DNA of 64,000 bases from Dokdonia sp. Dokd-P16 (lineage in GTDB: Bacteria; Bacteroidota; Bacteroidia; Flavobacteriales; Flavobacteriaceae): positions 2,417,001 to 2,481,000 of the forward strand of contig NZ_CP029151.1 in the NCBI RefSeq assembly GCF_003095655.1, written 5' to 3'. Shown here one piece after another: positions 7,231-61,515 of the stretch. The notes beneath the pieces were generated by a model that worked only from the letters and a program-made list of their open reading frames with translations, did not search any database and had not been told where the DNA came from. The number at the start of each line of letters is the position of its first letter. Positions within the stretch are counted from its first letter, which is position 1. A program made the position numbers and the translations under genes.

Positions 7231-7246
7231 CGCTTTCGCGAAAGCG
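7231..7246. repeat. Palindrome copy 1 (CGCTTTCGCGAAAGCG)
   Basis: Perfect 16-bp palindrome followed by TA, in the gap between the PLP-enzyme gene and the terminator of the next minus-strand gene. Confidence 0.95.
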
Positions 7247-7260
7247 TACATTAAATCCAT

Positions 7261-7295
7261 AAAAATAGGGCAGAAGGTATTACCAACTGCCCTAT
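7261..7295 (-). terminator. Rho-independent terminator of the 7315-7617 gene
   Basis: ATAGGGCAG (7265-7273) pairs with CTGCCCTAT (7287-7295). Read on the minus strand the stem is followed by TTTTT, and it lies 20 nt after the stop of the small exported protein. Confidence 0.8.
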
Positions 7296-7314
7296 GGTTA
7301 TAAAGTTATTGAGC

Positions 7315-7617
7315 TTATTTAATTAACTCAAGAGCAGTAATAGAAAGTACATCATACTCCTCATCATCCTCATTGATCTCTGAAGTTGTAGTGTACGTTA
7401 CTTTAAATATTTGTCCTTGAAACGCCTCAGTAGTAAGGTCAAATTGCTTTGCAGCAGCATCACTCATGGCGTCAAAAGAATGTGTAAGCTCATCTGCATC
7501 TTCAAAATAGAAAGTACCTTCTGCATAGCCAGTAAAAGTAGCGGTAACGCTATCTGTAGTTTGTACATTAAGAGCTAGTGTAACCACTGTAAAAAGGGCA
7601 ATAAACATTGTTTTCAT
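7315..7617 (-). CDS. Small exported protein of unknown function
   Basis: A 100-residue protein starting with a signal peptide (KTMFIALFTVVTLALNV). The rest is acidic, with a beta-rich look (TATFTGYAEGTFYFEDADE). No lipobox and no family recognised. It stands as its own unit with a terminator right after it. Confidence 0.65.
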   Translation of the reverse strand: MKTMFIALFTVVTLALNVQTTDSVTATFTGYAEGTFYFEDADELTHSFDAMSDAAAKQFDLTTEAFQGQIFKVTYTTTSEINEDDEEYDVLSITALELIK

Positions 7618-7760
7618 AATAGTGTAAATTAAAAAGTGTTGTTAATTTAAAATTGCCGCGTGTGCGACCACTATCAAATAGATTTCCCAATCTAGGATTT
7701 TACCCTATACCTTATACGTAGTGGGAGATAAGAATGTTACAAAAGGTGTTACAATTTTTT

Positions 7761-7780
7761 AAAATAATTGCAATTATTTT
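7761..7780 (-). terminator. AT-rich perfect palindrome at the 3' end of the acidic-protein gene
   Basis: AAAATAATTGCAATTATTTT is a perfect 20-bp palindrome that touches the stop codon of the 7780-8097 gene. It may act as a weak terminator for the polyamine operon; its stem is almost all A-T, so this is tentative. Confidence 0.4.
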
Positions 7781-8097
7781 TAATCCTCTCGTTCTTCTTG
7801 ATCTTCGTCCTCTATATCGAGATCTAGATCGTCATCATCTGTATCATCATCGTCATACTCATCTTGGTCAAAGTCCTCCATTGCCACAACAAGGCGCTTA
7901 CTTACTTTAACAAGGTATAAGGTGTCTTCTGTAGTTACTTCTACACAATCTACCATCTCACCTTGAGCATTTTTAAAAGAGATAATATGATGAGACTCAT
8001 ACCCATCTGGATACTTTGCAACTAGTAAATTTAATATATCATCATTGAGTTTTGCATAGTCTACAATGACGCGTCTTAGGTTACTCGGTTTTTTCAT
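7780..8097 (-). CDS. Conserved small protein with acidic tail
   Basis: The 105-residue protein has a compact N-terminal part (RRVIVDYAKLNDDILNLL, then VEVTTEDTLYLVKVS) and a C-terminal tail of almost only Asp and Glu (about residues 75-105). I recall similar flavobacterial proteins labelled DNA primase, apparently wrongly, since no primase motif is present. I start at MKKPSNLRR (8097); the upstream 11 codons run into the intergenic gap. It follows the deoxyhypusine-synthase-like gene after 38 nt and so may be the last gene of the polyamine operon. Function unknown. Confidence 0.65.
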   Translation of the reverse strand: MKKPSNLRRVIVDYAKLNDDILNLLVAKYPDGYESHHIISFKNAQGEMVDCVEVTTEDTLYLVKVSKRLVVAMEDFDQDEYDDDDTDDDDLDLDIEDEDQEERED

Positions 8098-8135
8098 TAT
8101 GCGTTTATTATTAAAGATGTGTTGAGACACCTTAT

Positions 8136-9110
8136 TTACATATCTAGTAGGTAAGCAAAGATTAATGGCGCTACAATAGTAGCATCACTCTCTATGATAA
8201 ACTTAGGAGTATCCATATCTAGTTTTCCCCAAGTGATTTTTTCATTAGGTACCGCTCCAGAGTAAGATCCATAACTAGTAGTTGAGTCACTTATCTGGCA
8301 GAAATAGCTCCAGAAAGGAGTTTCTGTACGTTCCATATCTTGGTAAAGCATAGGCACTACACAAATAGGGAAATCTCCTGCGATACCTCCACCTATCTGG
8401 AAGAAACCTATTCCTTTTTCTGAGTTTGCTGTATACCAGTCTGCAAGGAATGTCATGTACTCAATTCCAGACTTCATAGTCGTAGCTTTAAGTTCGCCTT
8501 TCATCACGTAGCTCGCAAAGATGTTACCCATAGTACTATCTTCCCAACCTGGGCAAATGATAGGTAGGTTTGCCTCTGCAGCTGCATACATCCAGCTATC
8601 CTTAATATCTATCTCGTAGTACTGCTCTAATACTCCAGAAAGTAACAGTTTGTACATGTACTCATGCGGTAAATAACGCTCACCAGCAGCCTCTGCATCT
8701 TGCCATATTTTTACAATATGTTCTTGAATACGACGAAAAGCTTCTTCTTCTGGAATACACGTATCTGTAACACGGTTAAGTCCTTTTTCTAGTAAATCCC
8801 ACTCATCTTGAGGAGTAAGATCTCTATAGTTAGGCACACGCTTGTAATGGCTGTGAGCTACAAGATTCATGATATCTTCTTCAAGGTTTGCACCTGTACA
8901 AGAAATGATATGCACTTTTTTCTGGCGTATCATCTCTGCAAAGATTTTTCCTATCTCTGCGGTACTCATTGCTCCAGCAAGAGAAACAAGCATTTTTGAT
9001 CCCTTTTCTAGTTGTGCTTCATACCCTTTGGCAGCATCTACGAGAGCAGCTGAGTTAAAGTGTAAGTAGTACTTCTCAATAAATTGTGATATTGCTCCTT
9101 TATTAGTCAT
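8136..9110 (-). CDS. Deoxyhypusine-synthase-like protein
   Basis: The 324-residue protein carries the deoxyhypusine synthase fold. SLAGAMSTAEIG is the NAD-binding start, SCTGANLEED follows, and ITWGKL near the C-terminus holds the lysine (K296) that matches the catalytic lysine in the eukaryotic VSWGK motif. Bacteria lack eIF5A, so the natural reaction must differ, for example transferring the aminobutyl group of spermidine or putrescine to a small amine such as in homospermidine formation. It overlaps the agmatinase gene by 8 nt and lies in a polyamine operon, which supports a role in polyamine synthesis. The exact product is an inference. Confidence 0.8.
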   Translation of the reverse strand: MTNKGAISQFIEKYYLHFNSAALVDAAKGYEAQLEKGSKMLVSLAGAMSTAEIGKIFAEMIRQKKVHIISCTGANLEEDIMNLVAHSHYKRVPNYRDLTPQDEWDLLEKGLNRVTDTCIPEEEAFRRIQEHIVKIWQDAEAAGERYLPHEYMYKLLLSGVLEQYYEIDIKDSWMYAAAEANLPIICPGWEDSTMGNIFASYVMKGELKATTMKSGIEYMTFLADWYTANSEKGIGFFQIGGGIAGDFPICVVPMLYQDMERTETPFWSYFCQISDSTTSYGSYSGAVPNEKITWGKLDMDTPKFIIESDATIVAPLIFAYLLDM

Positions 9111-10032
9111 TATAATCGTCTTCTTCTTGATTAACTTTTTTGCTTTTTTCTTGTAATCCGCTTACTTCATAGTCTTCTCCAGCATCTTCTTGCTCAAACT
9201 TATAGCTAAGCATTTTGTAGTATAATTTTGCCGCTGCAAACTCAGAAGGCTTGCTATTTCCATTAGGGCAAAGCTCTACAATATCAAAACCTACAACATT
9301 CTTCTCTGCAAACACGCGACGTAAGAAGTCTAGCGTTTCATACCAGAATAAACCTCCAGGTTCTGGAGTTCCTGTAGCTGATAGTACTGATGGATCAAAG
9401 GCGTCAAGATCAAATGTAATATATACATTATCTGTCATTGCCTCAATCGCATTGTCCATCCAGTAATCGTCTGTTGCCATCTCGTGAGCAAAGAAAACAT
9501 TCTCTTCATTCATCACTGTTTTTTCTATGGCATCCATACTACGTATTCCTACTTGCACAAGATTTGTAGTTTGGTTTGCTTCATACACAGCGCATGCGTG
9601 ATTACAAGTAGAACCTTCATAAGACTCACGTAAATCTGCATGTGCATCTAGTTGTAATACCGTAAGATTATCAAATGTTTCATTAAATGCGCGAATGGCA
9701 CCTATAGATACAGAATGCTCTCCACCAAACATGGTAACAAACTTGCTACGTTTAATGTTTTTCTTTACAATCTTGTGTACAGCTTCCACCATTGCTTCTG
9801 GTGATGAATTTTCTGTAATAGGATCTGCAAGGTGTATCCCTTGTTTGTAAACTTCGCTTCCTGTTTCAATGTCGTAAAGCTCCATATTTTCAGAAGCATG
9901 TAAAAATGCTTCAGGTCCCTTGTCGGCTCCTTTGCCCCAAGTACTAGTTCCGTCATAAGGAACTGGAAGTAAAACAATTTTAGCTTTTTCAGCTCCTGCA
10001 TATTCTTGTGGTATGCCTGCGTACGTTTTCAT
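9103..10032 (-). CDS. speB: Agmatinase (ureohydrolase family)
   Basis: Hydrolyses agmatine to putrescine and urea in the cytoplasm. The 309-residue protein shows all manganese-ligand motifs of ureohydrolases: GGEHS, QLDAHADLR and TFDLDAFDPS, with GTPEPGG between. The C-terminal 30 residues are charged and extend beyond the core. It lies downstream of arginine decarboxylase and overlaps the next gene by 8 nt. With speA this gives arginine to agmatine to putrescine. Arginase or another guanidino-hydrolase is less likely given the neighbour. Confidence 0.88.
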   Translation of the reverse strand: MKTYAGIPQEYAGAEKAKIVLLPVPYDGTSTWGKGADKGPEAFLHASENMELYDIETGSEVYKQGIHLADPITENSSPEAMVEAVHKIVKKNIKRSKFVTMFGGEHSVSIGAIRAFNETFDNLTVLQLDAHADLRESYEGSTCNHACAVYEANQTTNLVQVGIRSMDAIEKTVMNEENVFFAHEMATDDYWMDNAIEAMTDNVYITFDLDAFDPSVLSATGTPEPGGLFWYETLDFLRRVFAEKNVVGFDIVELCPNGNSKPSEFAAAKLYYKMLSYKFEQEDAGEDYEVSGLQEKSKKVNQEEDDYND

Positions 10033-10126
10033 GGTGATACTAGATGTTAGATGTAAAGTGAGAATGTTGTTTTCTCGGTGTTGTTACTGTTAGTGGTTAT
10101 ATAATTGATTTAATATTTTTTGTTTT

Positions 10127-10141
10127 GCTTTCGCGAAAGCG
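10127..10141. repeat. Palindrome copy 2
   Basis: GCTTTCGCGAAAGC plus G, followed by TA. It lies directly after the speA stop (10145) on the minus strand, between speA and speB. Confidence 0.95.
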
Positions 10142-10144
10142 TAT

Positions 10145-11536
10145 TTAATACCCTAAGATACCTAATAATTGCTCACTCGTTTGCTGCTCTGCAAATACTT
10201 CTGTGGTAATCTCTCCATCTTCATTGCGGTCAATAAGGATGTGTTTAGGAGAAGGCACAAGGCAGTGTTGTAGTCCGCCAAAACCTCCTATAGACTCTTG
10301 ATATGCTCCTGTATTGAAGAAACCTATATAGAGCGGTTTATCTTTTTTATACTTAGGCATATAAATCGCGTTCATGTGCTGCTCGCTGTTATAGTAGTCA
10401 TCACTATCGCAAGTAAGACCACCCAATAACACACGCTCATATTCTTCATTCCAGCGGTTTACGGCTAGCATGATAAAACGTTTGTTTATAGCCCAGGTAT
10501 CTGGTAATGTTGTGATAAATGAAGAGTTAATCATGTTCCACTTTTCACGGTCGTTTTGCTGCTTTTGGTAAAGGACTTCATAAATAGCTCCACCGCTTTC
10601 GCCAACAGTAAAGCTGCCAAACTCAGTAAAAATATTAGGCACCTTTACATCTGCATCATCACAAGCTTGTTTGATTTGTGCGATGATCTCATTAATCATG
10701 TATGCATAATCATACTCAAAGGCAAGCGAGTTTTTTATAGGGAAACCTCCACCTATGTTTAAGCTATCAAGTGACGGACAAATCTTTTTGAGATTAATGT
10801 ACACTTTGATACACTTCATGAGCTCGTTCCAGTAATAAGCCGTGTCGCGTATACCAGTGTTTATAAAGAAGTGAAGCATTTTAAGCTCAACCTTCTCGTT
10901 ATTTTTGATCTGGTTATTAAAAAATGGTACAATATTCTTGTAACCTATTCCAAGTCTTGAAGTATAGAATTCAAACTTAGGCTCCTCCTCAGATGCGATA
11001 CGAATTCCTACTTTAAACTTGCCATTAATCTGGTTGCTTAGAAGGTCAATCTCTTCGTAGTTGTCAATTACCGGAATTGCATTTTTGTGCCCATTATTAA
11101 TAAGACGAGCAATGTTTTCTACATACCTCTCACGTTTAAACCCATTGCTTATTACGTATGTATCGTCTGTGATTTTTCCCGCAGCTTTTAAACTCTCTAC
11201 AATATCTATATCAAATGCAGACGAAGTCTCGATATGTATATCATTAGAAAGTGCTTCGTTAAGCACGTGCTTAAAGTGTGAGCTTTTTGTACAGTAGCAA
11301 TAGTTATAACTTCCTTCATAACCATTTGCCTCGATAGCATCTGCAAACCATTTTTTAGCTCGCTGTATGTTATCAGAGATTTTAGGTAAATAAGTAAATT
11401 TAAGTGGTGCTCCGTATTGCTCTACAAGTTTCATAAGGTCTATGCCATGAAACTCTAAGTGGTTTTTATTAAGGTTAAATTCCTCTTGTGGGAAATAATA
11501 CGTCTGCTCGATGAGATCAATGTACTTGGTCTTCAT
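10145..11536 (-). CDS. speA: Biosynthetic arginine decarboxylase (PLP, fold type III)
   Basis: The 463-residue protein belongs to the alanine-racemase-fold decarboxylases. NYCYCTKSSHFKHVL holds the PLP lysine region, NIGGGFPIKNS is the glycine-rich phosphate loop, GGLTCDSDDYY carries the CxxD-type active-site cysteine, and IGFFNTGAYQES follows. Bacteroidota use this short form for arginine decarboxylation to agmatine. The downstream agmatinase supports arginine over diaminopimelate or carboxynorspermidine as substrate. It is the first gene of the polyamine unit and has 113 nt to speB, so a second promoter there is possible. A GGGGA-GATA-TCCCC hairpin lies about 40 nt upstream of the start. 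Confidence 0.85.
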   Translation of the reverse strand: MKTKYIDLIEQTYYFPQEEFNLNKNHLEFHGIDLMKLVEQYGAPLKFTYLPKISDNIQRAKKWFADAIEANGYEGSYNYCYCTKSSHFKHVLNEALSNDIHIETSSAFDIDIVESLKAAGKITDDTYVISNGFKRERYVENIARLINNGHKNAIPVIDNYEEIDLLSNQINGKFKVGIRIASEEEPKFEFYTSRLGIGYKNIVPFFNNQIKNNEKVELKMLHFFINTGIRDTAYYWNELMKCIKVYINLKKICPSLDSLNIGGGFPIKNSLAFEYDYAYMINEIIAQIKQACDDADVKVPNIFTEFGSFTVGESGGAIYEVLYQKQQNDREKWNMINSSFITTLPDTWAINKRFIMLAVNRWNEEYERVLLGGLTCDSDDYYNSEQHMNAIYMPKYKKDKPLYIGFFNTGAYQESIGGFGGLQHCLVPSPKHILIDRNEDGEITTEVFAEQQTSEQLLGILGY

Positions 11537-13165: not shown

Positions 13166-13182
13166 TAGTCACATAATTCCAT

Positions 13183-13218
13183 AAAAAAACCCTCAAGAGA
13201 AATCTTGAGGGTTTTTTT
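13183..13218. terminator. Strong bidirectional terminator
   Basis: CCCTCAAGA (13190-13198) pairs with TCTTGAGGG (13203-13211) around a GAAA tetraloop. Seven A precede and seven T follow, so it serves both the 12137 gene and the convergent yebC gene. Confidence 0.9.
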
Positions 13219-13231
13219 ATGCGTTGTAATT

Positions 13232-14382: not shown

Positions 14383-14421
14383 ATGCTTGTTTTTAAAGTG
14401 CTAGATAAAGATAGATAATTA

Positions 14422-14435
14422 CGCTTTCGCGAAAA
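14422..14435. repeat. Palindrome copy 3 (asymmetric right arm)
   Basis: ACGCTTTCGCGAAAATG, in which the right arm is GAAAAT instead of GAAAGC. It lies in the gap between phhB and the 14475 gene. Confidence 0.9.
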
Positions 14436-15012: not shown

Positions 15013-15026
15013 CGCTTTCGCGAAAA
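15013..15026. repeat. Palindrome copy 4 (asymmetric right arm)
   Basis: TACGCTTTCGCGAAAATAG, about 40 nt upstream of the 14972 start codon on the minus strand. Same GAAAAT variant as copy 3. Confidence 0.9.
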
Positions 15027-15753: not shown

Positions 15754-15769
15754 CGCTTTCGCGAAAGCG
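15754..15769. repeat. Palindrome copy 5
   Basis: Perfect CGCTTTCGCGAAAGCG preceded by G and followed by TAAA. It lies 24 nt upstream of the TlpA-like start. Confidence 0.95.
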
Positions 15770-18501: not shown

Positions 18502-18517
18502 CGCTTTCGCGAAAGCG
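18502..18517. repeat. Palindrome copy 6
   Basis: ACGCTTTCGCGAAAGCGTAA, 18 nt beyond the tetR operator, between the divergent tetR and kinase genes. Confidence 0.95.
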
Positions 18518-24703: not shown

Positions 24704-24707
24704 CAAT

Positions 24708-26221: not shown

Positions 26222-26236
26222 CGCTTTCGCGAAAGC
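26222..26236. repeat. Palindrome copy 7
   Basis: TACGCTTTCGCGAAAGC, 20 nt after the stop of the M48-TerB gene and before its terminator. Confidence 0.95.
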
Positions 26237-26353: not shown

Positions 26354-26367
26354 CGCTTTCGCGAAAA
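26354..26367. repeat. Palindrome copy 8 (asymmetric right arm)
   Basis: GTACGCTTTCGCGAAAATGT; the same 20-nt string occurs at 40241-40260, so two asymmetric copies are identical beyond the core. Confidence 0.9.
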
Positions 26368-29527: not shown

Positions 29528-29638
29528 AGTTGATTGTTTTTTAATTGATTGTCTAAATATACACTTATTTGTAAATCTAGCATACGGTCTAGTGTTACTA
29601 GAAATAATGATTGTGAGAACATTTTCGCGAAAGCGTAG
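29528..29638. repeat. ~105-bp direct repeat, copy R3
   Basis: Shares TTGTTTTTTAATTGATTG, AAATATACACTTATTTGTAAATCTA and TTACTAGAAATAATGATTGTGAG with R1 and R2, with more divergence in the middle. It lies 80 nt upstream of the 29448 start and ends in a full palindrome copy. Confidence 0.82.
29622..29635. repeat. Palindrome copy 9 (end of R3)
   Basis: TTTTCGCGAAAGCG followed by TAG. It forms the end of R3; the same place in R2 and R1 has a half and a decayed copy. Confidence 0.9.
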
Positions 29639-32858: not shown

Positions 32859-32873
32859 GCTTTCGCGAAAGCG
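32859..32873. repeat. Palindrome copy 10
   Basis: GCTTTCGCGAAAGCG flanked by GG and TT, in the divergent gap between the 32111 lipoprotein gene and rpsA. Confidence 0.95.
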
Positions 32874-35284: not shown

Positions 35285-35300
35285 CGCTTTAGCGAAAGCG
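35285..35300. repeat. Near-perfect palindrome copy (CGCTTTAGCGAAAGCG)
   Basis: One substitution in the centre (TTTAGCGAAA for TTTCGCGAAA), flanked by AA and TAC. In the gap after rpsA. Confidence 0.8.
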
Positions 35301-38640: not shown

Positions 38641-39051
38641 ATGGCACGCATCATTGCAATAGATTACGGAACAAAGCGCACTGGTATCGCAGTGACAGAC
38701 GAGTTGCAGATGATCGCTTCAGGTCTTACAACGGTTGAAACAAAAGATATTTTCATCTTTTTGAAGAAATATCTTTCAGAAGAGAAGGTGGAGGCTATGG
38801 TGATAGGTGAGCCTAAGCGCATGAATAATGAGGCGAGTGATGTGGAGGTAGACATTGTACGCTTTCGCGAAAGCGTAGAAAAAAAACATCCAGAGTTAAC
38901 CATCATTAGACAAGATGAAAGGTTTACCTCAAAGATGGCTTTCCAGACCATGTTAGACAGTGGTATCGGTAAAAAGAAAAGACAAAATAAAGCACTTGTA
39001 GATCAAATAAGTGCAACGATTATCCTTCAGGATTACCTGTATAATAAGTAG
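38641..39051 (+). CDS. yqgF: YqgF/RuvX family putative Holliday junction resolvase (16S rRNA maturation)
   Basis: The 136-residue protein has the RNase H-like fold motifs of the family: AIDYGTKRTGIAVTD at the N-terminus, VIGEPKRMNNEAS in the middle and DERFTSKMA near the C-terminus, which hold the acidic metal ligands. It is essential in many bacteria and probably processes pre-16S rRNA. A full 20-bp palindrome lies inside the gene (38858-38877) and encodes VRFRESV in frame, in the loop after the DVEVDIV segment. It is 2 nt before def. Confidence 0.92.
   Translation: MARIIAIDYGTKRTGIAVTDELQMIASGLTTVETKDIFIFLKKYLSEEKVEAMVIGEPKRMNNEASDVEVDIVRFRESVEKKHPELTIIRQDERFTSKMAFQTMLDSGIGKKKRQNKALVDQISATIILQDYLYNK
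38858..38877. repeat. Palindrome copy 11, full 20-bp form, inside yqgF
   Basis: TACGCTTTCGCGAAAGCGTA is perfectly self-complementary. It is read in frame as V-R-F-R-E-S-V. Confidence 0.98.
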
Positions 39052-40243: not shown

Positions 40244-40257
40244 CGCTTTCGCGAAAA
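40244..40257. repeat. Palindrome copy 12 (asymmetric right arm)
   Basis: GTACGCTTTCGCGAAAATGT, identical over 20 nt to copy 8. Between the DUF5606 terminator and mazG. Confidence 0.9.
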
Positions 40258-44827: not shown

Positions 44828-46129
44828 ATGAATCGTACTTCAAAAATTATTTCTATTAGTAATATAACAGTGCTTAAAGAGCAATTGTTATCGTGGTCTC
44901 AACAATTTGAAGAGGTCGTTTGGCTTGATAGTAATAGCTATGAACGTCAGAATTATCCCGAGTATGAAGCAATTCTTGCAGTAGATGCTTTTACAAGTTT
45001 AAAGACTGATTATCAAGGTGCTTTTGATCAGCTGGAGGAGTATCAAAGTACGATAAAGGATTGGATATTTGGCTATTTAAGTTATGACCTTAAGAATGAC
45101 ACAGAACGCTTAACCTCAAAAAATGATGATAAGCTAGATTTTGCAGACCTTCATTTTTTTCAACCTAAAAAGTTATTCTTACTTAAAGGAAACACACTCG
45201 AGATATTATATCTAGGGATGGTAGATGATGAGATAGATGAAGATTTTGAGGAAATAACCGCCACCAAACCTCCTGAAACCAAATCCCAAGCGCAGCCATT
45301 ATCTATAAAACTTAAGATACACAAAGAGGCATACAAGGAAAAAGTGCGCAGCATGTTAGAACATATTTATAGGGGAGATATTTATGAGGCAAACTTATGT
45401 CAAGAGTTTTATGCAGCGGGAACTATTAATCCACTAGCTATTTATAAACGCCTTACTGCGATTAGTTCGCCACCATTTGGCACTTATCTCAAGCTTGAGG
45501 ATCAGTTTTTACTTTCGGCTTCTCCAGAGCGATATATTAAGAAAATAGGGAGTAAGATTGTTACACAGCCCATAAAAGGAACTGCAAAACGAGGAGTGGA
45601 TGAAAAGGAGGATACCGCTTTCGCGAAAGCGTTACAAGAAAACTCAAAAGAGCGCTCCGAAAATATCATGATTGTAGATTTGGTAAGAAATGACCTATCA
45701 AAAACTGCCCAAAAAGGATCTGTAATTGTAGAAGAGCTATGCGAAGTTTATCCTTTTAAGCAAGTGCACCAAATGATCTCTACGGTAACCTCGACGCTTA
45801 GTCTTGGTATTTCTCCGGTAGATGCGATTAGAAGTACCTTTCCAATGGGAAGTATGACCGGAGCACCAAAGTTGCGAGCGATGCAAATTATTGAGTCACT
45901 AGAAGAGTCAAAACGTGGCTTGTATAGTGGTGCTGTAGGTTATTTTACGCCAGATGGAGATTTTGATTTTAATGTAGTCATACGTAGTATTCTATACAAT
46001 GCAGAAAATGAATATATCTCATACTCCGTAGGTGGAGCTATCACCGCAGGATCAGATCCAGATAGTGAGTATGAAGAATGCTTGCTTAAAGCAAAAGCGA
46101 TGCGTGCAGTTTTAGAAGGAGATTTGTAA
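44828..46129 (+). CDS. pabB: Aminodeoxychorismate synthase component I (chorismate-binding)
   Basis: The 433-residue protein belongs to the anthranilate/aminodeoxychorismate synthase family: YEANLCQEFYA, LSASPERYI, PIKGTAKRG, ENIMIVDLVRNDLSK, FPMGSMTGAPKLRAM and GYFTPDGDFDFNVVIRS, the full chorismate-binding set. No trp genes are near, so PabB (folate route) is favoured over TrpE. An in-frame palindrome (45616-45631) encodes AFAKA between the PIKGT motif and the ENIMIVD motif, in a loop that is normally variable. Confidence 0.82.
   Translation: MNRTSKIISISNITVLKEQLLSWSQQFEEVVWLDSNSYERQNYPEYEAILAVDAFTSLKTDYQGAFDQLEEYQSTIKDWIFGYLSYDLKNDTERLTSKNDDKLDFADLHFFQPKKLFLLKGNTLEILYLGMVDDEIDEDFEEITATKPPETKSQAQPLSIKLKIHKEAYKEKVRSMLEHIYRGDIYEANLCQEFYAAGTINPLAIYKRLTAISSPPFGTYLKLEDQFLLSASPERYIKKIGSKIVTQPIKGTAKRGVDEKEDTAFAKALQENSKERSENIMIVDLVRNDLSKTAQKGSVIVEELCEVYPFKQVHQMISTVTSTLSLGISPVDAIRSTFPMGSMTGAPKLRAMQIIESLEESKRGLYSGAVGYFTPDGDFDFNVVIRSILYNAENEYISYSVGGAITAGSDPDSEYEECLLKAKAMRAVLEGDL
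45616..45631. repeat. Palindrome copy 13, inside pabB
   Basis: CGCTTTCGCGAAAGCG read in frame as A-F-A-K-A (codons GCT TTC GCG AAA GCG). Confidence 0.97.
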
Positions 46130-46632: not shown

Positions 46633-46648
46633 CGTTTTCGCGAAAGCG
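46633..46648. repeat. Palindrome copy 14
   Basis: CGTTTTCGCGAAAGCG, one base off perfect in the left arm, in the ettA leader. A TACCTTTG -7-like box lies upstream at 46580-46587. Confidence 0.9.
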
Positions 46649-48683: not shown

Positions 48684-48698
48684 CGCTTTCGCGAAAGC
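48684..48698. repeat. Palindrome copy 15
   Basis: CGCTTTCGCGAAAGC preceded by CC and followed by AT. It lies 40 nt after the M14 peptidase stop codon (minus strand). Confidence 0.95.
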
Positions 48699-48737: not shown

Positions 48738-51275
48738 TTAATCAATGAGACTCCCGAAGAAGATTGCGTTTAAGAATAGCTTATTGGTTCCATACCAGCT
48801 TCCTCTAAAGTTAGGATTATCTGCAAACATTACAACACGTCCTCGTCCTTTAGGAGAGACCACAATAGATGCGCTCTTTTTCATAAAGTCATTGAGGTTT
48901 TTATCAGAAATGTAACCATCAATATGAGGCGTAGCCGAATATTGTGCAACGGTGTTATACTCGTTCTTGCTAGGTTGTAACCAGACATTGTTATTTTTAT
49001 ATACAGGTAGTTGCTTGTAGCGATAACCAAATGCTAGCGGATGAGTAAGATCTAGGTCTACTTCAAAAATAGCTCCACCTAGACGCTCCTTTCCACGATT
49101 AGGTCTTTGATTAACGTAAGGCTCTCTTTTAATAGTTTTTGTAGAATCTTTCTTGACTTCATTAGTTAGCGTTCCTGATGCTATTTTTGACTTGATAGCC
49201 CAGCTGCTAGCGGTTCCAGAAGTAATCAACGTATTTCCTTGTGTAACCCATGAAGTAAGATTTTCTTGAAATCGCTTTGATAAATCCCCGTAGCTTCCAG
49301 ATACTATTACTAATGTGTTGTACTTGCTCAAATCTACTCTGTTAAGGTTATTACTCATCACTTTTGTAATAGGCATATGGACACGTGTGTCAAGTAAATG
49401 CCATATCTCACCAGCTTCATATGAGCTTGTACCATCTCCTATAATCATAAGCGCTTTAGGAGTATCTACTTTTTGAAAATTCTGACTACCTAAGTCGATT
49501 CCTTTAATACTAAAGCCAGTGTTTGCCGCATAGATAGGTACTTGAAATTGCTGTTGTCCAGCTGTTACGATGCGATATACCTCGTCTGCAGATTTTTCTT
49601 GACGGCTTACAGGCAGCATAAGCGTTCCGTAGTTGAAGTCATGATTACCGCTTGTTGTTTTTGCTGTAAAAGGTTTGAACGCAGTCGCCACTGTTAGACC
49701 TTCACGCTGCAAGTAGGCAAGCAGAGCAGGCGCATTATAATCATCATAATCGATGAGGTATGCGTAATTTGTTTGTGTCACCGCTTTAACTTGAGTGAGA
49801 TTATCTGTTGAGGTTACTTCTTTACCTAAAGACGGCGTGCTATTCAATCCCTTGTAACGCATATTATAGAAGTTACCCACAGACCATGCACTTGCGTCAT
49901 AATAGACACTATCTCTATAAGTTTTATAGGTTTCAAAGAAGGACTGCACCATTCTTTTTTGTGCTTGTTGTGTAGGTACTACATAACGTCCATCGCCTTT
50001 GTCATATAACTTAATACGATGCTTAAGGAGTTTGTCTATAAAAGCCTTCGTTCTGTTTGCATCATAAGGATCTCCAAACTCATAAGCGGCTGCTTGATCT
50101 GTTTTTGCTTTCGCGAAAGCGGACTTGAAAAAATCTTGCTGGTACTTACGTAAAGTACCTTTATTCTCTACAGCAGCCTTTACAGTTGCCATTCCAGAGG
50201 TATACTGATTTCTTATAGTGAAGGGAAAACTTATGGTGCCAAAATCTGTGTCCTGCAAATGCCCGCGACTGCTCGCTTGTTCAAAAAGTAGCGCCAGTGC
50301 TCCTTGTAAATCTGGATATGATGATCCATAACCAGGATAGGTGCCGTCAAAAGATTCCTTTGTAAAATAAAAACTACCTATCTCATCAAGCGCACTTGAA
50401 AAGTAAGGAGCAAAAAGGTTATTGAGGTCTTCATAGTTTTCCTTTGGCATAATAGGATCCATACTCCCAATAGGCAGCATAGGCTCAAAAAAGTGACTGC
50501 TGTTTGTGCCCATCTCGTGAAAATCTGTAACTACATTTGGGTACCACTCGTGATACCAATCTAGTTTGCCACGGCTTTCCGGATTTATAGCAAGTAGCCA
50601 GTCACGGTTTAGGTCAAACCAATAATGATTAGTTCTTCCTCGTGGCCACATTTCTGTATGCTCTGCGTCTATATTATCAGAAACTAGTGGTGAGCCTTTA
50701 TAACTATTTGCCCACTGTGTGTGGCGATCACGACCATCTGGGTTTATGGTAGGGTCTATAAATATGATGCTGTTATTTCTATATTTTTCGATTTCTGGAT
50801 GCTGTGAGGCAACGAGCGTGTATGCAGTAAGTAACGCCGCTTCAGAGCTGGATGGCTCATTACCATGTACATTATAACCTAGCTGTATAAACACGGGTAC
50901 GTCATTATAGTTTGACACTTTCTGATTAGTATCTACAAATGCGAGGTGTTGTTTTTTTAGGGTAGGTAAGTTCTCTTGATTATTTACGTTTGAGATGGTA
51001 AGTATCACAAGTTTTCTGTTCTCGTGTGTTCTTCCGTACTCACTTATCGTTGCTCTAGGCGATAACTCGGCTAGTTTTTCAAAATAGGAGACTATCTGAT
51101 CGTGGCGTGTGTGTTGCTCACCTATTTCATAACCAAGATATTGTGCCGGAGACGGTATTGCAGCGTCAAAAGGTGCGTACTTTCCTGTAAAGTACTCTTG
51201 AGCGTGTAGTTGAGGTGATAACGCTTTCGCGAAAGCGAATACTAAAACACTTACAATTAGAATTTTATATTTCAT
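48738..51275 (-). CDS. M14 family zinc carboxypeptidase, exported
   Basis: The 845-residue protein begins with a signal peptide (KILIVSVLVFAFAKALSPQLHAQ). An N-terminal M14 domain follows: QLGYNVHGNEPSSSEAAL with His and Glu zinc ligands, IDPTINPDGRDRH, and VVTDFHEMGTNSSHFFEP with the third ligand region. The C-terminal half has beta-sandwich and GATase-like patterns (LMIIGDGTSSYEAGEIWHLLD, VIVSGSYGDL). It probably digests peptides outside the inner membrane. Two palindrome copies lie inside it. One is in the signal peptide (FAKAL) and one encodes SAFAKAK at about residue 387. The gene is alone, with no close partner. Confidence 0.88.
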   Translation of the reverse strand: MKYKILIVSVLVFAFAKALSPQLHAQEYFTGKYAPFDAAIPSPAQYLGYEIGEQHTRHDQIVSYFEKLAELSPRATISEYGRTHENRKLVILTISNVNNQENLPTLKKQHLAFVDTNQKVSNYNDVPVFIQLGYNVHGNEPSSSEAALLTAYTLVASQHPEIEKYRNNSIIFIDPTINPDGRDRHTQWANSYKGSPLVSDNIDAEHTEMWPRGRTNHYWFDLNRDWLLAINPESRGKLDWYHEWYPNVVTDFHEMGTNSSHFFEPMLPIGSMDPIMPKENYEDLNNLFAPYFSSALDEIGSFYFTKESFDGTYPGYGSSYPDLQGALALLFEQASSRGHLQDTDFGTISFPFTIRNQYTSGMATVKAAVENKGTLRKYQQDFFKSAFAKAKTDQAAAYEFGDPYDANRTKAFIDKLLKHRIKLYDKGDGRYVVPTQQAQKRMVQSFFETYKTYRDSVYYDASAWSVGNFYNMRYKGLNSTPSLGKEVTSTDNLTQVKAVTQTNYAYLIDYDDYNAPALLAYLQREGLTVATAFKPFTAKTTSGNHDFNYGTLMLPVSRQEKSADEVYRIVTAGQQQFQVPIYAANTGFSIKGIDLGSQNFQKVDTPKALMIIGDGTSSYEAGEIWHLLDTRVHMPITKVMSNNLNRVDLSKYNTLVIVSGSYGDLSKRFQENLTSWVTQGNTLITSGTASSWAIKSKIASGTLTNEVKKDSTKTIKREPYVNQRPNRGKERLGGAIFEVDLDLTHPLAFGYRYKQLPVYKNNNVWLQPSKNEYNTVAQYSATPHIDGYISDKNLNDFMKKSASIVVSPKGRGRVVMFADNPNFRGSWYGTNKLFLNAIFFGSLID
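50107..50121. repeat. Palindrome copy 16, inside the M14 gene
   Basis: GCTTTCGCGAAAGCG is read on the minus strand as S-A-F-A-K-A-K. Confidence 0.96.
51222..51237. repeat. Palindrome copy 17, inside the M14 signal peptide
   Basis: CGCTTTCGCGAAAGCG is read on the minus strand as F-A-F-A-K-A-L and places a lysine in the hydrophobic core or end of the signal peptide. Confidence 0.96.
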
Positions 51276-54874: not shown

Positions 54875-54954
54875 TACTATTCTAAAATCTTGATTAAATG
54901 TAGGTGCTTATTGTGAAAGCTAGTATTTTAGCTTGACGCGAAAAATAAAAACCT

Positions 54955-55929: not shown

Positions 55930-56941
55930 GACTAGATCACTTTCTGATAAAGTCTGGCTAGTTCTCAAAGGGCTGGCTATGGGTGCCGCAAATAAGGTAC
56001 CTGGAGTTTCTGGAGGTGTAGTCGCATATGTAGCAGGTTTCTATGAAGAGTTTATTTACTCACTTCAAAAAGTTAATGGAAAAGCATTGAAATTGCTTTT
56101 TAGTGGTAGGTTCAATAGTTTTTGGAGGTATATAAATGGAAAGTTTTTAGGGCTACTTATACTTGGTATGCTTATCAGCTATTTTAGCGTGTCGCTACTA
56201 TTAGATATTGCCATTCGTAATTATCCTTTACTCGTTTGGAGTGCTTTTTTTGGGATGATTATAGGTTCCATTTACTATATCGCAAAGGATTTTGAAGAGT
56301 GGACTAGGCGGAACATCGTGATGCTTATCTCGGGGATTATATTTGGTGTTGCTATAAGCCTCATGGAACCAGCCCAAGAAAATGACAACCTATTTTTTGT
56401 ATTTATATGTGGTATTATTGGAGTTTCTGGGATGACATTGCCAGGGCTTTCAGGCTCGTTTATCCTTATACTTCTAGGTAATTATGTGCTGCTCCTTGTA
56501 GATGCTGTAAATGCATTATTCGTGACGATGACTAGCGTTTTTGGTGGTGATTTCACTTTTATAGATGATCCAGAACACATGAGATTACTTACGGTGCTTG
56601 TTGTGTTTTCATTAGGCTCACTTACAGGTCTCGTGACTTTATCTCACTTTTTAAGTTTCTTACTCAAGAAATTTAGATGGGCAACTAATGCAGCGATTTT
56701 AGGCTTTATTATAGGCTCTCTTGGCGTAGTCTGGCCGTGGAAGCTTGAAGTGTTTAAAAGGGACTCCTTAGGGGAGATAGCGATAGACAGAAACGGCAGC
56801 CCCATATTAGATAATTATGATCGCTACATGCCTACAGATATTAATATAGAAAATGTGCTCGCGGTATTTTTTATCCTCACCGGTATTTTTATGGTCGTGG
56901 CATTAGGAAAATATGGAACAAGAACAAAAGCTCGTGGATAA
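55913..56941 (+). CDS. DUF368 family polyprenyl-phosphate transporter-like protein (second copy)
   Basis: The 342-residue paralogue of the preceding protein has the same hallmark loops in changed form (MGAANKVPGVSGGVVAYVAGFY and MTLPGLSGSFILILLGNYV). The acidic D of the first loop (GAAD) is N here (GAAN), which may change transport. It starts within the previous gene (17 nt overlap) and its end overlaps aroE by 29 nt. The two may form a heterodimer or serve different lipid carriers. Confidence 0.87.
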   Translation: MYMQTETRSLSDKVWLVLKGLAMGAANKVPGVSGGVVAYVAGFYEEFIYSLQKVNGKALKLLFSGRFNSFWRYINGKFLGLLILGMLISYFSVSLLLDIAIRNYPLLVWSAFFGMIIGSIYYIAKDFEEWTRRNIVMLISGIIFGVAISLMEPAQENDNLFFVFICGIIGVSGMTLPGLSGSFILILLGNYVLLLVDAVNALFVTMTSVFGGDFTFIDDPEHMRLLTVLVVFSLGSLTGLVTLSHFLSFLLKKFRWATNAAILGFIIGSLGVVWPWKLEVFKRDSLGEIAIDRNGSPILDNYDRYMPTDINIENVLAVFFILTGIFMVVALGKYGTRTKARG

Positions 56942-57701
56942 ATACGGACTCATAGGAAAAGATATAGGATACTCGTTTTCTAGAGGGTATTTTAAAAATA
57001 AATTTGACAAGCTTGAGATAGCGGCAACATATGTGAATTTTGATGTTCCCGAGAAAGAAGCCTTAAAAGATCTTTTTTCTCCCGCTTACGCGAAAGGTTA
57101 TAATGTAACTATCCCTTATAAACAAGATGTAATACCCTTAGTAGATAATCTCAATTCAGATGCCGAAGCTATTGGAGCTGTAAACACCATAAGAGTTGAA
57201 AGTGATGGAACATTAACTGGTTATAATACGGATTTTATTGGTTTTAGAGATACCTTATTGGAGCACTTTGGAGACTCTCTTTTTGAAGATTTTGGCAAGC
57301 CAAACTTTAAAAGTAGAGATTTAAAATGCCTTATTTTAGGAACAGGAGGAGCATCAAAGGCGGTCCACTATGCAATGAAACAACTAGGTGTTCAATGTGT
57401 TTTTGTTTCGCGAAAGCGTAAAGAATCAACAATAACCTACGAAGATCTAGATAGAGAACTCATCGAGAGCCAGACCTTTATAGTGAATACAACTCCGCTA
57501 GGTACTTATCCAGATGTAGAGGAATCCCCAGATATTCCGTATTTATTTTTAAATGAAACCCATGTCGCATTTGATTTGATTTATAATCCGGCAGAGTCTT
57601 CTTTTTTGCGCTTTGCAAGTGAGCAAGGAGCGACAATTATAAATGGTTTGCGCATGCTTGAACTACAAGCAGAAGCCTCATGGTCAATATGGAACAGCTA
57701 G
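56913..57701 (+). CDS. aroE: Shikimate dehydrogenase
   Basis: Reduces 3-dehydroshikimate with NADPH in aromatic synthesis. The 262-residue protein has the shikimate-binding start (YGLIGKDIGYSFSRGYFKNKF), the catalytic lysine in NVTIPYKQDVIP, GAVNTI, the Rossmann loop LGTGGASKAVHYAMKQLG and the C-terminal NGLRMLELQAE. The start codon overlaps the DUF368 gene by 29 nt. A palindrome copy lies after the Rossmann loop and reads as VSRKRKES, where SRKRK is in the cofactor 2'-phosphate pocket (NADP). Confidence 0.93.
   Translation: MEQEQKLVDKYGLIGKDIGYSFSRGYFKNKFDKLEIAATYVNFDVPEKEALKDLFSPAYAKGYNVTIPYKQDVIPLVDNLNSDAEAIGAVNTIRVESDGTLTGYNTDFIGFRDTLLEHFGDSLFEDFGKPNFKSRDLKCLILGTGGASKAVHYAMKQLGVQCVFVSRKRKESTITYEDLDRELIESQTFIVNTTPLGTYPDVEESPDIPYLFLNETHVAFDLIYNPAESSFLRFASEQGATIINGLRMLELQAEASWSIWNS
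57405..57418. repeat. Palindrome copy 18, inside aroE
   Basis: GTTTCGCGAAAGCG plus TA reads in frame as V-S-R-K-R-K. The left arm is shorter than in other copies, perhaps constrained by the cofactor-binding loop. Confidence 0.85.
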
Positions 57702-57779
57702 AAAGCTGCATTATGCCCATATGTGCCCGCTAAATAGTATATTTACCTATATTCAAATAGAACCCTAACATTGAAAGAA

Positions 57780-59798
57780 ATGTCTGAAGAGAAGAAACCC
57801 CAAGATCCAAGTATTGAAGAGCATCTAGAAGAAACGGCTCCTGCCGCAGATCGCACGATGAATGCAGAAATAGAAGCGCTCGCTGCCGAGGCAAACGATA
57901 CTGAGCTATCTACAGAGGAAGTGAGTGAAAACGCTGCTGCCACAACAGAAGCAGCACCTGCAGAAACTACAGCAGTTACTGAGGAAGCGCCTGTAGAAAA
58001 AAAGGAAGTGCCAAAAAAAGATTATACCGTTCTTTCAAAAGAGGAGTTAATTGCAGAGCTGCAATTACTCATCAAAAATGAAAGAGTTACAGATATAAAA
58101 GATCAGGTAGAAGAAATTAATACTTTGATTAATGCTCAGTTTGACGCAGCGCAAGAGGAGGCTAAACGAGCATTTCTTGCCGAAGGTGGAAATATCATTG
58201 ATTTTAGATTTTTCTCTCCACTCAAAAAAGAATTTAATGAGGTGTATTACGAGTACCGTAATAAACGTCAGGAGTTTTATGAGCGTAAGCGTAAAGATCA
58301 AAATGCAAACCTTAGAGAACGTCAGGACCTAATAGAAGAGGTAAAGGCATTGCGCAATGAACTAGGAGGTGCAGAGAGTGTAAACACTACGTTCAATAAA
58401 TTTAAGGATATCCAAGAACGCTGGAATAATGCAGGTAACATCCCAAGAGATCGTTACAATCTTGTGTGGAACGATTACTACTTCCATATTGATGCATTTT
58501 ATGAGTTATTGCACTTAAATCGTGATTTCCGCGATAAGCACTTTAAAGAAAATCTAGATAAGAAATTACTGCTTATAGAAAGAGCAGAGGAGTTAGGAGC
58601 AGAGCCTAACATCAATAAAGCTTTTAAAGAATTACAATTACTTCACCGCATGTGGAAAGAGGAGATAGGTCCTGTTGCACGTGAGTATAGTGATGAGATC
58701 TGGGACAAATTTAGTGTTGCAACAAAGAAGATACATGATGCACGCGATGAAAAACAGAAGGAAGTGGAGGCTGTATGGGTTCAAAATCTAGAACAGAAAA
58801 ATGAAATCATTGCTAAGATAAAAGAGGTAGCTCAAGATGATATCAAGGCACACAAAACAGTACAAGCCAAAATCAAGAAAGTAGAGGCTTTACGTGATGA
58901 ATTCTTTAAAGCTGGTAAAGTTCCTAAAGAAAATAACGAGGAGACATGGGCATCTTTTAAGGAGGCTACAAAATTATTCAACCACAAGAAGAATGATTTT
59001 TATAAGTCTCAAAAGAAAGAACAATACGATAACCTTGCGAAGAAACAAACACTTGTAAAAATAGCACAAGAGCACAAGGATAGTGACGATATTCCTGGAA
59101 CGCTAGATGTAATGAAACGCATCCAAGCAGACTGGAAAAAAGTAGGTCACGTACCACGTAAGGATAGCGATAAGATCTGGAAAGAATTTAAAGAGGCGTG
59201 TAATCACTTCTTTGATCGCATGAAGGATTCTAAGAAGCAAGCAAATGCTGGCGAGCAAGAAAACCTAGAGAAGAAGCAGGCTTTAATGAAGACTGTAAAA
59301 GAAGCTAAGATGACTGGTGAGCGAGATGCAGATCTCACAGCAATCAAGGCTTTTATAGAAGATTGGAAAGCTATAGGTCGTGTTCCTTATGCAAAGAAGA
59401 ATATCGACCAAGACTTTAATAAACTTCTCGATGGTCTTTTCAAGCAACTTGATATAGATAAGAAAGAAGCAGAGCTCATCAAATATGAGAACCGTATGAG
59501 TATTATGGTTGATGATGAAGCAGCTATTGAGAGAGAGCGTTTCTTTATCCGTAAGAAGATAGATGAGGTAAAAGCAGAGATTAATCAATTAGAGAATAAC
59601 TTAGGCTTTTTCCAGCATGTAGCAGATGATAACCCTATGGTTGCAGAGGTTCACAAGAACATTGCACGTCATAAGGAAGATTTAAATATGTGGAAATCTA
59701 AGTTACGTAAACTCAGAATGGCAATCACAGAAAGCCAGAAAGTAGAGGAGGAAGAAACGACCGAAACTGAAGAAGCTGAAGATACATCAGATTCATAA
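57780..59798 (+). CDS. DUF349 repeat protein
   Basis: The protein (672 residues from the ATG at 57780) has an acidic, Glu/Ala/Thr-rich N-terminal tail (~80 residues) and then several helical DUF349 repeats, seen as ADWKKVGHVPRKDSDKIWKEFKEACNHFFDRMK, DEFFKAGKVPKENNEETWASFKEATKLFNHKK and EDWKAIGRVPYAKKNIDQDFNKLLDGLFKQL. The C-terminus is acidic too. It is cytoplasmic and very charged. The family has no settled role; a coiled, RNA- or ribosome-related scaffold is often guessed. The open frame reaches a TTG 9 nt earlier, but ATG is more likely. Confidence 0.9.
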   Translation: MSEEKKPQDPSIEEHLEETAPAADRTMNAEIEALAAEANDTELSTEEVSENAAATTEAAPAETTAVTEEAPVEKKEVPKKDYTVLSKEELIAELQLLIKNERVTDIKDQVEEINTLINAQFDAAQEEAKRAFLAEGGNIIDFRFFSPLKKEFNEVYYEYRNKRQEFYERKRKDQNANLRERQDLIEEVKALRNELGGAESVNTTFNKFKDIQERWNNAGNIPRDRYNLVWNDYYFHIDAFYELLHLNRDFRDKHFKENLDKKLLLIERAEELGAEPNINKAFKELQLLHRMWKEEIGPVAREYSDEIWDKFSVATKKIHDARDEKQKEVEAVWVQNLEQKNEIIAKIKEVAQDDIKAHKTVQAKIKKVEALRDEFFKAGKVPKENNEETWASFKEATKLFNHKKNDFYKSQKKEQYDNLAKKQTLVKIAQEHKDSDDIPGTLDVMKRIQADWKKVGHVPRKDSDKIWKEFKEACNHFFDRMKDSKKQANAGEQENLEKKQALMKTVKEAKMTGERDADLTAIKAFIEDWKAIGRVPYAKKNIDQDFNKLLDGLFKQLDIDKKEAELIKYENRMSIMVDDEAAIERERFFIRKKIDEVKAEINQLENNLGFFQHVADDNPMVAEVHKNIARHKEDLNMWKSKLRKLRMAITESQKVEEEETTETEEAEDTSDS

Positions 59799-59860
59799 TT
59801 GTAACATTTTGAGCATAGTGTCGTCTTTATAGTATCAATCAATCTTTAAAAATCGACATT

Positions 59861-59992
59861 ATGAAAACTCAAGTACACACAACACAGTTACAGAATCCTA
59901 GGCAAGGAAGAAATTTAATTTTAGGGGTATATGTAATATTCTCCACATTCTTAATAGCTTCTTACACGCTAGTACAGTATTTCTCTATGTAG
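59861..59992 (+). CDS. Possible 43-residue membrane protein
   Basis: A 44-codon ATG-TAG frame: KTQVHTTQLQNPRQGRN, then a helix LILGVYVIFSTFLIASYTLVQYFSM. A polar, basic N-terminus with one membrane helix. It lies 62 nt after the DUF349 gene and is followed within 10 nt by a strong terminator, which supports real expression. Confidence 0.55.
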   Translation: MKTQVHTTQLQNPRQGRNLILGVYVIFSTFLIASYTLVQYFSM

Positions 59993-60000
59993 AGTAAATG

Positions 60001-60034
60001 AAAAAAAACACAACTTGCGTTGTGTTTTTTTTTT
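60001..60034 (+). terminator. Terminator after the small membrane protein
   Basis: AAAAAACACAAC, TTGC loop, GTTGTGTTTTTT: perfect stem followed by more T. Confidence 0.88.
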
Positions 60035-60071
60035 GCGCATAACTCAACGTCTTGCAATACCTATAAACCAC

Positions 60072-60110
60072 AAAATCCGCTCCCAGTTATGGAAGCGGAT
60101 TTTGCTTTTT
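60072..60110. terminator. Second hairpin with T tail
   Basis: AAAATCCGCT (60072-60081) pairs with AGCGGATTTT (60094-60103) and is followed by GCTTTTT. It is either a backup terminator or a structured RNA end. No gene is between it and the first terminator, and 110 nt remain before the phosphatase gene. Confidence 0.65.
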
Positions 60111-60220
60111 CATAGCAGATTTTGTCTATGTTACTTAAACTAAGTATAAAGACACTATATATGTCGGTTGTTTATAAGAGACCTTACAAAAATGTATCTT
60201 TGAGTATAAAATAAATTATT

Positions 60221-60766
60221 ATGATGCGCATTCTATTATTTCTCTTTGTGGTTACTGCAACAACCTTAAGCTGTGATGGTCAGAAAAAGAAGGAATCACC
60301 TTCTAACACGATTACAACAAACTATTACTTTATTCGTCACGCAGAAAAAGATTTGAGTGATCCTAGTAATCGTAATCCAGATTTAACCATAGAAGGAGAA
60401 GAGAGAGCAGAGCGCTGGAAAGCTTATTTCTCAGATAAGGATATCGATGCTGTATACTCGACAGACTATATACGTACGATGCGCACTGCACAACCTACAG
60501 CCGTGGCAAATAATGTTGAGATACAATCCTATAACCCAGCGGATTTATATTCAGAAGATTTTAAAATGGACACTGCAGGTAAAAACATTGTAGTAGTAGG
60601 TCATAGCAATACCACTCCTAATTTTGCAAATGCCGCATTAGGTGAGAACTCTTTTAAAGATATTGATGAGTCTGAGTATTTCCATCTTTACCACGTACAA
60701 CTTGTTGTAAATGATGAAACGGGAGAGATAATTGATAAAAAAAACATCTCAACGGTAGTAGACTAG
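60221..60766 (+). CDS. Histidine phosphatase family lipoprotein
   Basis: The 181-residue protein has a lipoprotein signal (MRILLFLFVVTATTLSC). A small histidine-phosphatase domain follows, with YYFIRHAEKD (catalytic RHAE), VYSTDYIRTMRTAQPTA and VVVGHSNTTPNF (second histidine). It is envelope-anchored and of the SixA-like short type. The substrate is unknown. A TATCTTTG -7-like box lies at 60195-60202. Its 3' end overlaps the convergent DUF6503 gene by 4 nt. Confidence 0.85.
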   Translation: MMRILLFLFVVTATTLSCDGQKKKESPSNTITTNYYFIRHAEKDLSDPSNRNPDLTIEGEERAERWKAYFSDKDIDAVYSTDYIRTMRTAQPTAVANNVEIQSYNPADLYSEDFKMDTAGKNIVVVGHSNTTPNFANAALGENSFKDIDESEYFHLYHVQLVVNDETGEIIDKKNISTVVD

Positions 60767-61515
60767 CAGTTTTTAGGACAAATACTTACAGTGATATTCT
60801 CAAGCTCAATCTTACTTAAAAGATTGAGCTTGTTGTTTTCAAAGAGATTATCAAGCGTGGTAAGCGCAGGAAATTGCTCTTCTGGTTTATAATTGCGATA
60901 ATCTACAAAGCGTATTCCTTCTATAATACGTTCATTGTAAGCTTCTCTAAAACGAGTCCCACCTTCAGAAGTTTGATAATTATAAGCAAGATAATTTACG
61001 TTGTAATTCTCTTTGTGAATCCAATACATATACTCATCTTGAAAATCTTCGCCACCGCCTTCTTGTGCAAATGCTACTTTTATACGGTAGTAAGGTTCGC
61101 CTTTTACGGCAACTTCATCCACTAGTTTTTTTCTAACTGCAGGGTCATTTAAGCCATATGGAAGAACAGAAAAGTAATGAACAGAGTTTACACTATTTGC
61201 ATAGCGATTTTTCATGCTATCTGCTACTGGGATAGGTGCGCTTTCGCGAAAGCGTACAAATTCTCCATTCTCCTTTATAACATCCTGTTGCATCTGGCAT
61301 GCTGCATCCGTACAACGCTCTAAGGTGCGCAAACTACCATTACGCGTGGCTCTGTAGTAATAATTTCTAAATTTGAAATGAATACTTGCATTTGCAATTT
61401 GAGCCCCACCAGAAGCTGCTATGGCCTTATCTACAATCTCTTGTGCAGTAGGTGTTTTTTGAGAACAGCTTGTGATAATTAGTAATACAATAATCGCCGA
61501 AAGATATCGAAACAT
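60763..61515 (-). CDS. DUF6503 family lipoprotein
   Basis: The 250-residue protein has a lipoprotein signal (YLSAIIVLLIITSC) and a beta-rich mature part (IHFKFRNYYYRATRNGSLRTLERC, EYMYWIHKENYNVNYLAYNYQTSEGGTRFREAYNERIIEGIRFVDYRNY) of the LolA-like/DUF6503 type common in Flavobacteriia. An in-frame palindrome (61239-61254) encodes VRFRESAP. It is probably periplasmic and lipid-binding, by analogy only. Confidence 0.72.
   Translation of the reverse strand: MFRYLSAIIVLLIITSCSQKTPTAQEIVDKAIAASGGAQIANASIHFKFRNYYYRATRNGSLRTLERCTDAACQMQQDVIKENGEFVRFRESAPIPVADSMKNRYANSVNSVHYFSVLPYGLNDPAVRKKLVDEVAVKGEPYYRIKVAFAQEGGGEDFQDEYMYWIHKENYNVNYLAYNYQTSEGGTRFREAYNERIIEGIRFVDYRNYKPEEQFPALTTLDNLFENNKLNLLSKIELENITVSICPKNC
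61239..61254. repeat. Palindrome copy 19, inside the DUF6503 gene
   Basis: CGCTTTCGCGAAAGCG, flanked by G and TAC, read on the minus strand as R-F-R-E-S, the same peptide as in yqgF. Confidence 0.97.

Follow-up and report, generated by a model that had tools for sequence, protein, structure and literature searches.

The chromosome of Dokdonia sp. Dokd-P16 carries a highly repeated short palindrome, TTTCGCGAAA, which may behave like a DNA uptake or self-recognition sequence and would then be read on the double strand by a symmetric (dimeric) DNA-binding protein. We give this reading a probability of about 40%. The analysis started from a stretch of 64 kb (the window), positions 2,417,001-2,481,000 of a single-contig genome of 3,623,447 bp, here called G000. 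The window has a GC content of 36.5% and contains 19 copies of the 10-bp core, while 0.03 are expected from 100 dinucleotide shuffles, none of which reached 19. A first-pass annotation, made from the letters of the window, had counted the same 19 copies and estimated from base composition that the core should appear far less than once, and both statements were borne out. The positions it gave lie 1-5 bases upstream of the core and mark the start of the extended match, but the copies themselves are real. In the whole chromosome we counted 1074 copies of TTTCGCGAAA against 10 of the reversed word used as control, and 808 of the extended 14-mer GCTTTCGCGAAAGC against none of its control. The count is far above expectation and the sites are not restricted to the region of the window, since all twenty 20-kb stretches sampled from the chromosome contain 4-10 of them. 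Such strong over-representation is a trait of DNA uptake sequences (DUS) and uptake signal sequences (USS).

Anatomy and placement were studied in 464 kb of G000 (the window and the twenty 20-kb stretches) with 139 sites. Their consensus is the 20-mer TACGCTTTCGCGAAAGCGTA, that is the core TTTCGCGAAA with GCGTA arms; the complete 20-mer is present once in the window. The sites continue for about 15 further bases beyond the arms as G-poor 3' flanks on both strands. At 10-20 bases outward from the centre of the site, on each strand, G is down to 7% and A is up to 43%, and background is reached by about 40-50 bases. The flank bias is present at coding and noncoding sites alike, as well as at 23 sites on phage contigs, some of which are related. 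Changes in one arm are independent of those in the other, the symmetry at positions 6-8 being no greater than expected for independent arms, and therefore an RNA hairpin is not the conserved thing. Words with one mismatch to the core are near background, except for changes at core positions 3 and 4 and their mirror positions, which are in excess; there is no such excess at positions 1-2. Half-words that are not part of a full site are modestly over-represented (e.g. GCGAAAGC, 19 against 6.2), and about 15 of the 19 lone GCGAAAGC copies keep a damaged partner arm, as judged by eye. Among the options that the first-pass annotation had offered, a protein-binding site is the best fit: the site is symmetric, its core is conserved and its lone halves are only modestly enriched.

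By mechanical open reading frame (ORF) calls, under which the sample is 90% coding, 71 of the 139 sites are inside ORFs and 68 outside. Site density is about eight-fold higher outside ORFs, where all gene orientations are represented, and 39 of the 71 sites inside genes fall in one preferred frame. The same calls give 13 intergenic copies among the 19 in the window, as had been annotated.

The sites are evenly spaced, which is another DUS/USS trait. We compared the 464-kb sample with 2000 simulations preserving the coding split. There were 5 gaps below 500 bp (23.6 in the null) and 12 below 1000 bp (38.1 in the null), and the coefficient of variation (CV) of the spacing was 0.60 (1.01 in the null); for the gaps below 500 bp and for the CV, none of the simulations was as low. 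Counts per 10 kb had a dispersion of 0.55 against 1.12 (p 0.0015), and the counts of the twenty 20-kb stretches one of 0.40 (p 0.010). Three listings of positions were also set against a plain uniform null. The CV was 0.66 for 67 sites of G016 (p 0.0001) and 0.55 for 20 sites on contig 9 of G010 (p 0.005; gaps below 1000 bp 1 against 3.0, p 0.16). These two listings are significant by CV, and the third, the first 385 kb of G000, by short gaps only (9 below 1000 bp against 22.5). The empty stretch between 18.6 and 26.2 kb of the window, which had drawn attention in the first-pass annotation, is real but unremarkable: gaps reach 10.2 kb in the 464-kb sample, and the first 385 kb of the chromosome includes some of 13-23 kb. 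Two of these long gaps (G000 C1, 89,946-113,221 and 334,008-346,942), picked for being site-free, have 33-34% GC, below the 36.5% of the window, and the latter is a glycosyltransferase/polysaccharide-type cluster.

High copy number is found throughout the genus as sampled: all 17 other Dokdonia genomes examined contain 481-1195 copies of TTTCGCGAAA. In a draw of 397 genomes of the family, six were high: G000 and G011 of Dokdonia (g1), three genomes of a second genus, g11 (595, 700 and 648 copies), and one of a third genus, g210 (559 copies), to which the genome G230 belongs. The other 391 hold at most 34 copies, and the carriers represent three of more than 200 genera of the family. Only G000 was high in a draw of 395 genomes of the phylum, where the next best had 6 copies of the 14-mer. 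The two further carrier genera have the same core and arms, and one of them has 47% GC in its sampled 20 kb. High copy number is clade-specific and perhaps patchy. In a quick tree of EttA (one protein, many open forks) g11 stands apart on a long branch and G230 is found beside Dokdonia without firm placement. The closest named relative found by EttA is a Dokdonia MAG (94% identity); its EttA groups within the g1 clade, and g1 is taken as Dokdonia on this basis.

We also scanned 79 loci of at least 8 kb for alternative words. Three are carriers (L001, L149 and L150), and no comparably enriched palindrome was found in the other 76. Strong non-palindromic repeats are present in a few non-carrier loci (L049, L037, L029 and L002); in L049 (Robertkochia marina), and also in L037, both loci of 21.7 kb, these are strongly repeated 10-mers of the ACTAACGACT / CTAACAACTA type. 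In the motif-poor genome G200, all four copies of the 14-mer lie within 16 kb (contig 1, 311-327 kb), as if on an island from a motif-rich host.

To follow individual copies, the orthologous stretches of six Dokdonia relatives were aligned with the window, leaving out unalignable sites. Query sites were picked as intact, which favours retention somewhat, and control 10-mers lie 30-60 bp from the sites. The core was kept at 11 of 12 sites in G006 (94% identity), where 36 of 78 control 10-mers were identical, and at 14 of 16 sites in G008 (90% identity; controls 36 of 102). The respective values were 6 of 7 in G003 (79% identity; controls 6 of 46), 5 of 7 in G016 (79%; 4 of 43), 5 of 7 in G004 (76%; 3 of 45) and 3 of 3 in G011 (76%; 3 of 18). 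The motif is conserved above its surroundings, as are DUS and USS. The copies in the window are:

7234-7243, core, intergenic; kept in G006 and G008
10129-10138, core, intergenic; kept in G006 and G008, missing at the aligned place in G004, whose site maps about 40 bp off
14425-14434, core, intergenic; kept in G006, G008, G003 and G016, missing in G004
15016-15025, core, intergenic; sites of G006 and G008 map at the same place
15757-15766, core, intergenic; sites of G003 and G016 map at the same place
18505-18514, core, intergenic between divergent genes; sites of G008 and G003 map at the same place
26225-26234, core, intergenic between convergent genes; kept in G008
26357-26366, core, intergenic between convergent genes, 132 bp from the 26225 copy; kept in G008
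29623-29632, core, intergenic; kept in G006 and G008
32861-32870, core, intergenic between divergent genes; kept in G008
38863-38872, core in ORF 38641-39051; kept in all six relatives
40247-40256, core, intergenic; kept in G008, G003, G016, G004 and G011, one core substitution in G006
45619-45628, core in the pabB-like ORF 44828-46129; kept in all six relatives
46636-46645, core, intergenic, upstream of ettA; kept in G006 and G008
48687-48696, core, intergenic, downstream of ettA; kept in G006, one core substitution in G008
50109-50118, core in ORF 48738-51275; kept in G006 and G008, lost by substitutions in G003 and G016
51225-51234, core close to the start of ORF 48738-51275; kept in G006, G008, G003 and G016
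57406-57415, core in ORF 56913-57701; kept in G006, G008, G003 and G004, one core substitution in G016
61242-61251, core in ORF 60763-61515; kept in G004, the sole relative aligned there
35288-35297, degenerate copy ACGCTTTAGCGAAAGCGTA with one core mismatch
656-665, decayed copy TTTGGCGAAA with one core mismatch and no left arm; the sites of G006, G008, G003, G016 and G004 that map there are intact

When each of the seven genomes was compared with every other, in both directions, there were 59 losses, with the same event often counted repeatedly. Many of them are one substitution, and some of those against G004 or G011 lie in poorly aligned, uninformative stretches. A gap of at least 8 in the relative was found for only one of the 59, and therefore copies do not come and go by insertion. 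The first-pass annotation had proposed to look for gain and loss in relatives; judged from these alignments, the pattern is maintenance with turnover by substitution and not by insertion. These data support a recognition site that is symmetric and double-stranded, and whose benefit or drive acts genome-wide and depends on spacing.

As for the neighbouring genes, the 10129 copy sits between a gene of the deoxyhypusine-synthase family (PF01916) and one with an Orn/Arg decarboxylase-type PLP domain (PF02784), both within 8136-11536. The ORF at 43090-44700 matches the AprA_N, AprA winged-helix and AprA MT2-like domains of Pfam.

The palindrome is also found in phages. IMG/VR was scanned for the 14-mer, so the contigs were picked by the motif and its density in them is biased upward; the figures that follow hold among the matches listed. 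They include phage contigs carrying genes for portal, capsid, sheath, terminase or primase proteins, at least three with integrase or transposase genes, and five records with a near-identical portal gene. Among 34 low-GC phage records counted whole, 16 have 2-8 copies and 18 have one. The densest has 8 copies in 37 kb, and the reversed control occurs once in total. In 22 carrier genomes there was one portal match above the cut-off (in G012), with 1 site in the surrounding 20 kb. Two phages of a Nonlabens/Persicivirga host have 0 copies, which would be informative only if that host were a carrier. In each of four phage records the palindrome begins 6 bases past the stop codon of a gene for a protein of 211 amino acids (L289:9290-9941; L290:3679-4330, the same place as L189:2315-2966; L185:6844-7495; L203:5737-6388), 95-99% identical to the first. 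As a candidate reader, this protein gave no Pfam match in five homologous rows and no PHROGs match for the one tested. It ends in a hydrophobic stretch and, by its sequence, is perhaps membrane-bound.

The best reading is that DUS/USS are the nearest behavioural analogue of the motif, which shares several of their reported traits, palindromy excepted. Like the Dokdonia motif, the DUS/USS of Neisseriaceae and Pasteurellaceae have about 1000-2000 relatively evenly spaced copies, many of them in ORFs, are self-conserved in more divergent flanks and have biased flanking bases. Two papers report that they are biased towards the core genome, conserve themselves where the flanks diverge more, and are spaced relatively evenly (PMC2397512, PMC7811141). 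Unlike them, the motif described here is a perfect palindrome, belongs to Bacteroidota and is also present in phage contigs, and its role in uptake is a prediction. We do not class it as a DUS because its palindromy departs from the known cases. In the proposed mechanism, a symmetric (dimeric) DNA-binding protein would read the double-stranded palindrome and motif-bearing DNA would be favoured for entry or recombination, which would restore copies in shared chromosomal DNA. The even spacing would arise because near-duplicate sites gain little, and newly acquired islands would be without the motif.

This reading is favoured by the high copy numbers in all 18 Dokdonia genomes and two further genera with the same core and arms, the even spacing, the core retention and the low GC of the two inspected site-free gaps, one of them a glycosyltransferase cluster. 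One study reports natural competence with a preference for own DNA in Riemerella columbina (PMC7965970).

Several points weigh against it. DUS are described as not palindromic in a passage of PMC1939737, and the Dokdonia motif is a perfect palindrome. According to PMC7965970, Flavobacterium johnsoniae was not competent under the same conditions. None of the papers listed by a literature search on competence in Dokdonia names this genus, and no receptor was found. The 100 sites in the first 385 kb of G000, with several long gaps, have a CV of 0.86, which is not significant (p 0.077). The site deficit in unshared DNA is slight: 126 sites were counted in 400 kb with similarity to more distant relatives and 4 in the other 23.8 kb, where equal density would predict about 7.5. 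Up to 8 sites are present on each of the motif-picked phage contigs, and an intracellular role explains this equally well or better. In the 32 genomes of a test panel (15 high, 17 low), none of the families searched for (the methylases PF00145 and PF01555, RAYT, RecC and an extra ParB) was common to the carriers, and no reader protein was found among them.

The main rival, possible but rather unlikely in our judgement, is a chromosome-organising or segregation site at which a dimeric nucleoid protein would anchor or bridge the chromosome about every 3 kb. The palindromic symmetry with little enriched lone halves, the even spacing with sites in every sampled stretch and the presence of the motif on phages of several kinds agree with such a role. 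Phage carriage leans to a chromosome-organising protein, or to slow adjustment of prophages to the host. The TTTC/GAAA half-sites of the palindrome resemble those of parS, and parS, Noc-binding and SlmA-binding sites are symmetric as well. In comparison with parS, however, the halves are 2 bp closer, the copies are far more numerous and no ParB specific to carriers was seen. ParB (PF17762) gave one strong match in each of the 32 panel genomes; a weak second match was seen in one high genome (G010) and in four low ones, so an extra ParB is unsupported. For a replication or segregation signal, another option of the first-pass annotation, two observations count: no carrier-specific ParB paralog was seen, and none of the 20 sampled stretches is without sites. 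The chromosome also tolerates site-free gaps of 13-23 kb, and high copy number in so few genera is odd for a core architectural system.

A bidirectional Chi-like stop signal for a RecBCD/AddAB-type nuclease is improbable. The strand entering the site from the 5' side is GT-rich, which recalls a reported preference of RecA. Chi is asymmetric, whereas this site is palindromic; its lone halves are only modestly enriched, although one half should be enough for a signal read on a single strand. RecC was found in none of the 32 panel genomes (AddAB was not searched), and a RecBCD-type Chi is thus unsupported. The likeness lies in the biased flanks of the motif and in its density, which is near that of Chi in E. 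coli, for which PMC1939737 gives a similar number of 1008 copies.

The first-pass annotation had likened the motif to HIP1 (GCGATCGC), a palindrome which, with the alternate HIPs, is highly iterated in cyanobacteria. The likeness holds for iteration within and between genes and for clade-specificity. A link of the motif to a DNA methyltransferase with biased repair is decidedly improbable. High-frequency HIPs pair with specific methylases according to PMC4390886. In the panel, C5 methylases (PF00145) were not found in 9 of the 15 high genomes, G000 included, and N6/N4 methylases (PF01555) were above the cut-off in 2 of the 15, while two others had weak matches below it. No methylase is common to carriers in these two families, the only ones searched, so a link to C5 or N6/N4 methylases is unsupported. 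Deamination-type neighbours are not clearly depleted, albeit in small numbers (C4 to T 2 against 3.1, C6 to T 2 against 1.7). In HIPs one-base deviations concentrate at the first and last bases; here the excess falls on positions 3-4 of the 10-bp core and not on its ends.

A transcription terminator or RNA hairpin is very improbable: for sites outside ORFs, 18 of the 67 measured distances to a stop codon are below 20 bp, but half of the copies lie within ORFs, those outside occur in all gene orientations, the arms vary without compensatory covariation, and the base enriched 3' of the site is A rather than T.

The tiny mobile palindrome that the first-pass annotation had also considered, spread by insertion as a repetitive extragenic palindrome (REP/RAYT-type) or like a miniature inverted-repeat transposable element, is scarcely credible: many short copies, denser outside ORFs, and RAYT-family genes (PF01797) in all three g11 genomes speak for it, but it is largely refuted by the substitution-type losses without insertion or excision signature, by in-gene copies kept at the same positions, and by the patchy RAYT, found as one weak match in 11 Dokdonia genomes and not in G230. 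As a whole, the first-pass interpretation is partly supported.

Returning to uptake or self-recognition, a bolder proposal is doubtful at present: this would be the first such sequence in Bacteroidota and the first palindromic one, its dimeric receptor would have arisen in or moved among three flavobacterial genera and remodelled their chromosomes with some 500-1200 evenly spaced copies, and several kinds of phage would mimic the host password. We found no earlier description of the TTTCGCGAAA pattern in open-licence literature, seen mostly as titles and abstracts, and a term search of PMC4390886 did not turn up Flavobacteria, Bacteroidetes or TCGCGA.

Few genomic words are both highly iterated and evenly spaced, and those known so far (DUS, HIP1, Chi) have links to DNA uptake, methylation or recombination. 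In this abundant marine phylum such a signal was not found described in the literature searched, and its presence or absence is sharp between genera, with three carrier genera. Close relatives show gain and loss, and the reader protein should be findable by gene-content comparison. The Dokdonia motif would offer an independent system for testing drive versus selection as the cause of signal accumulation.

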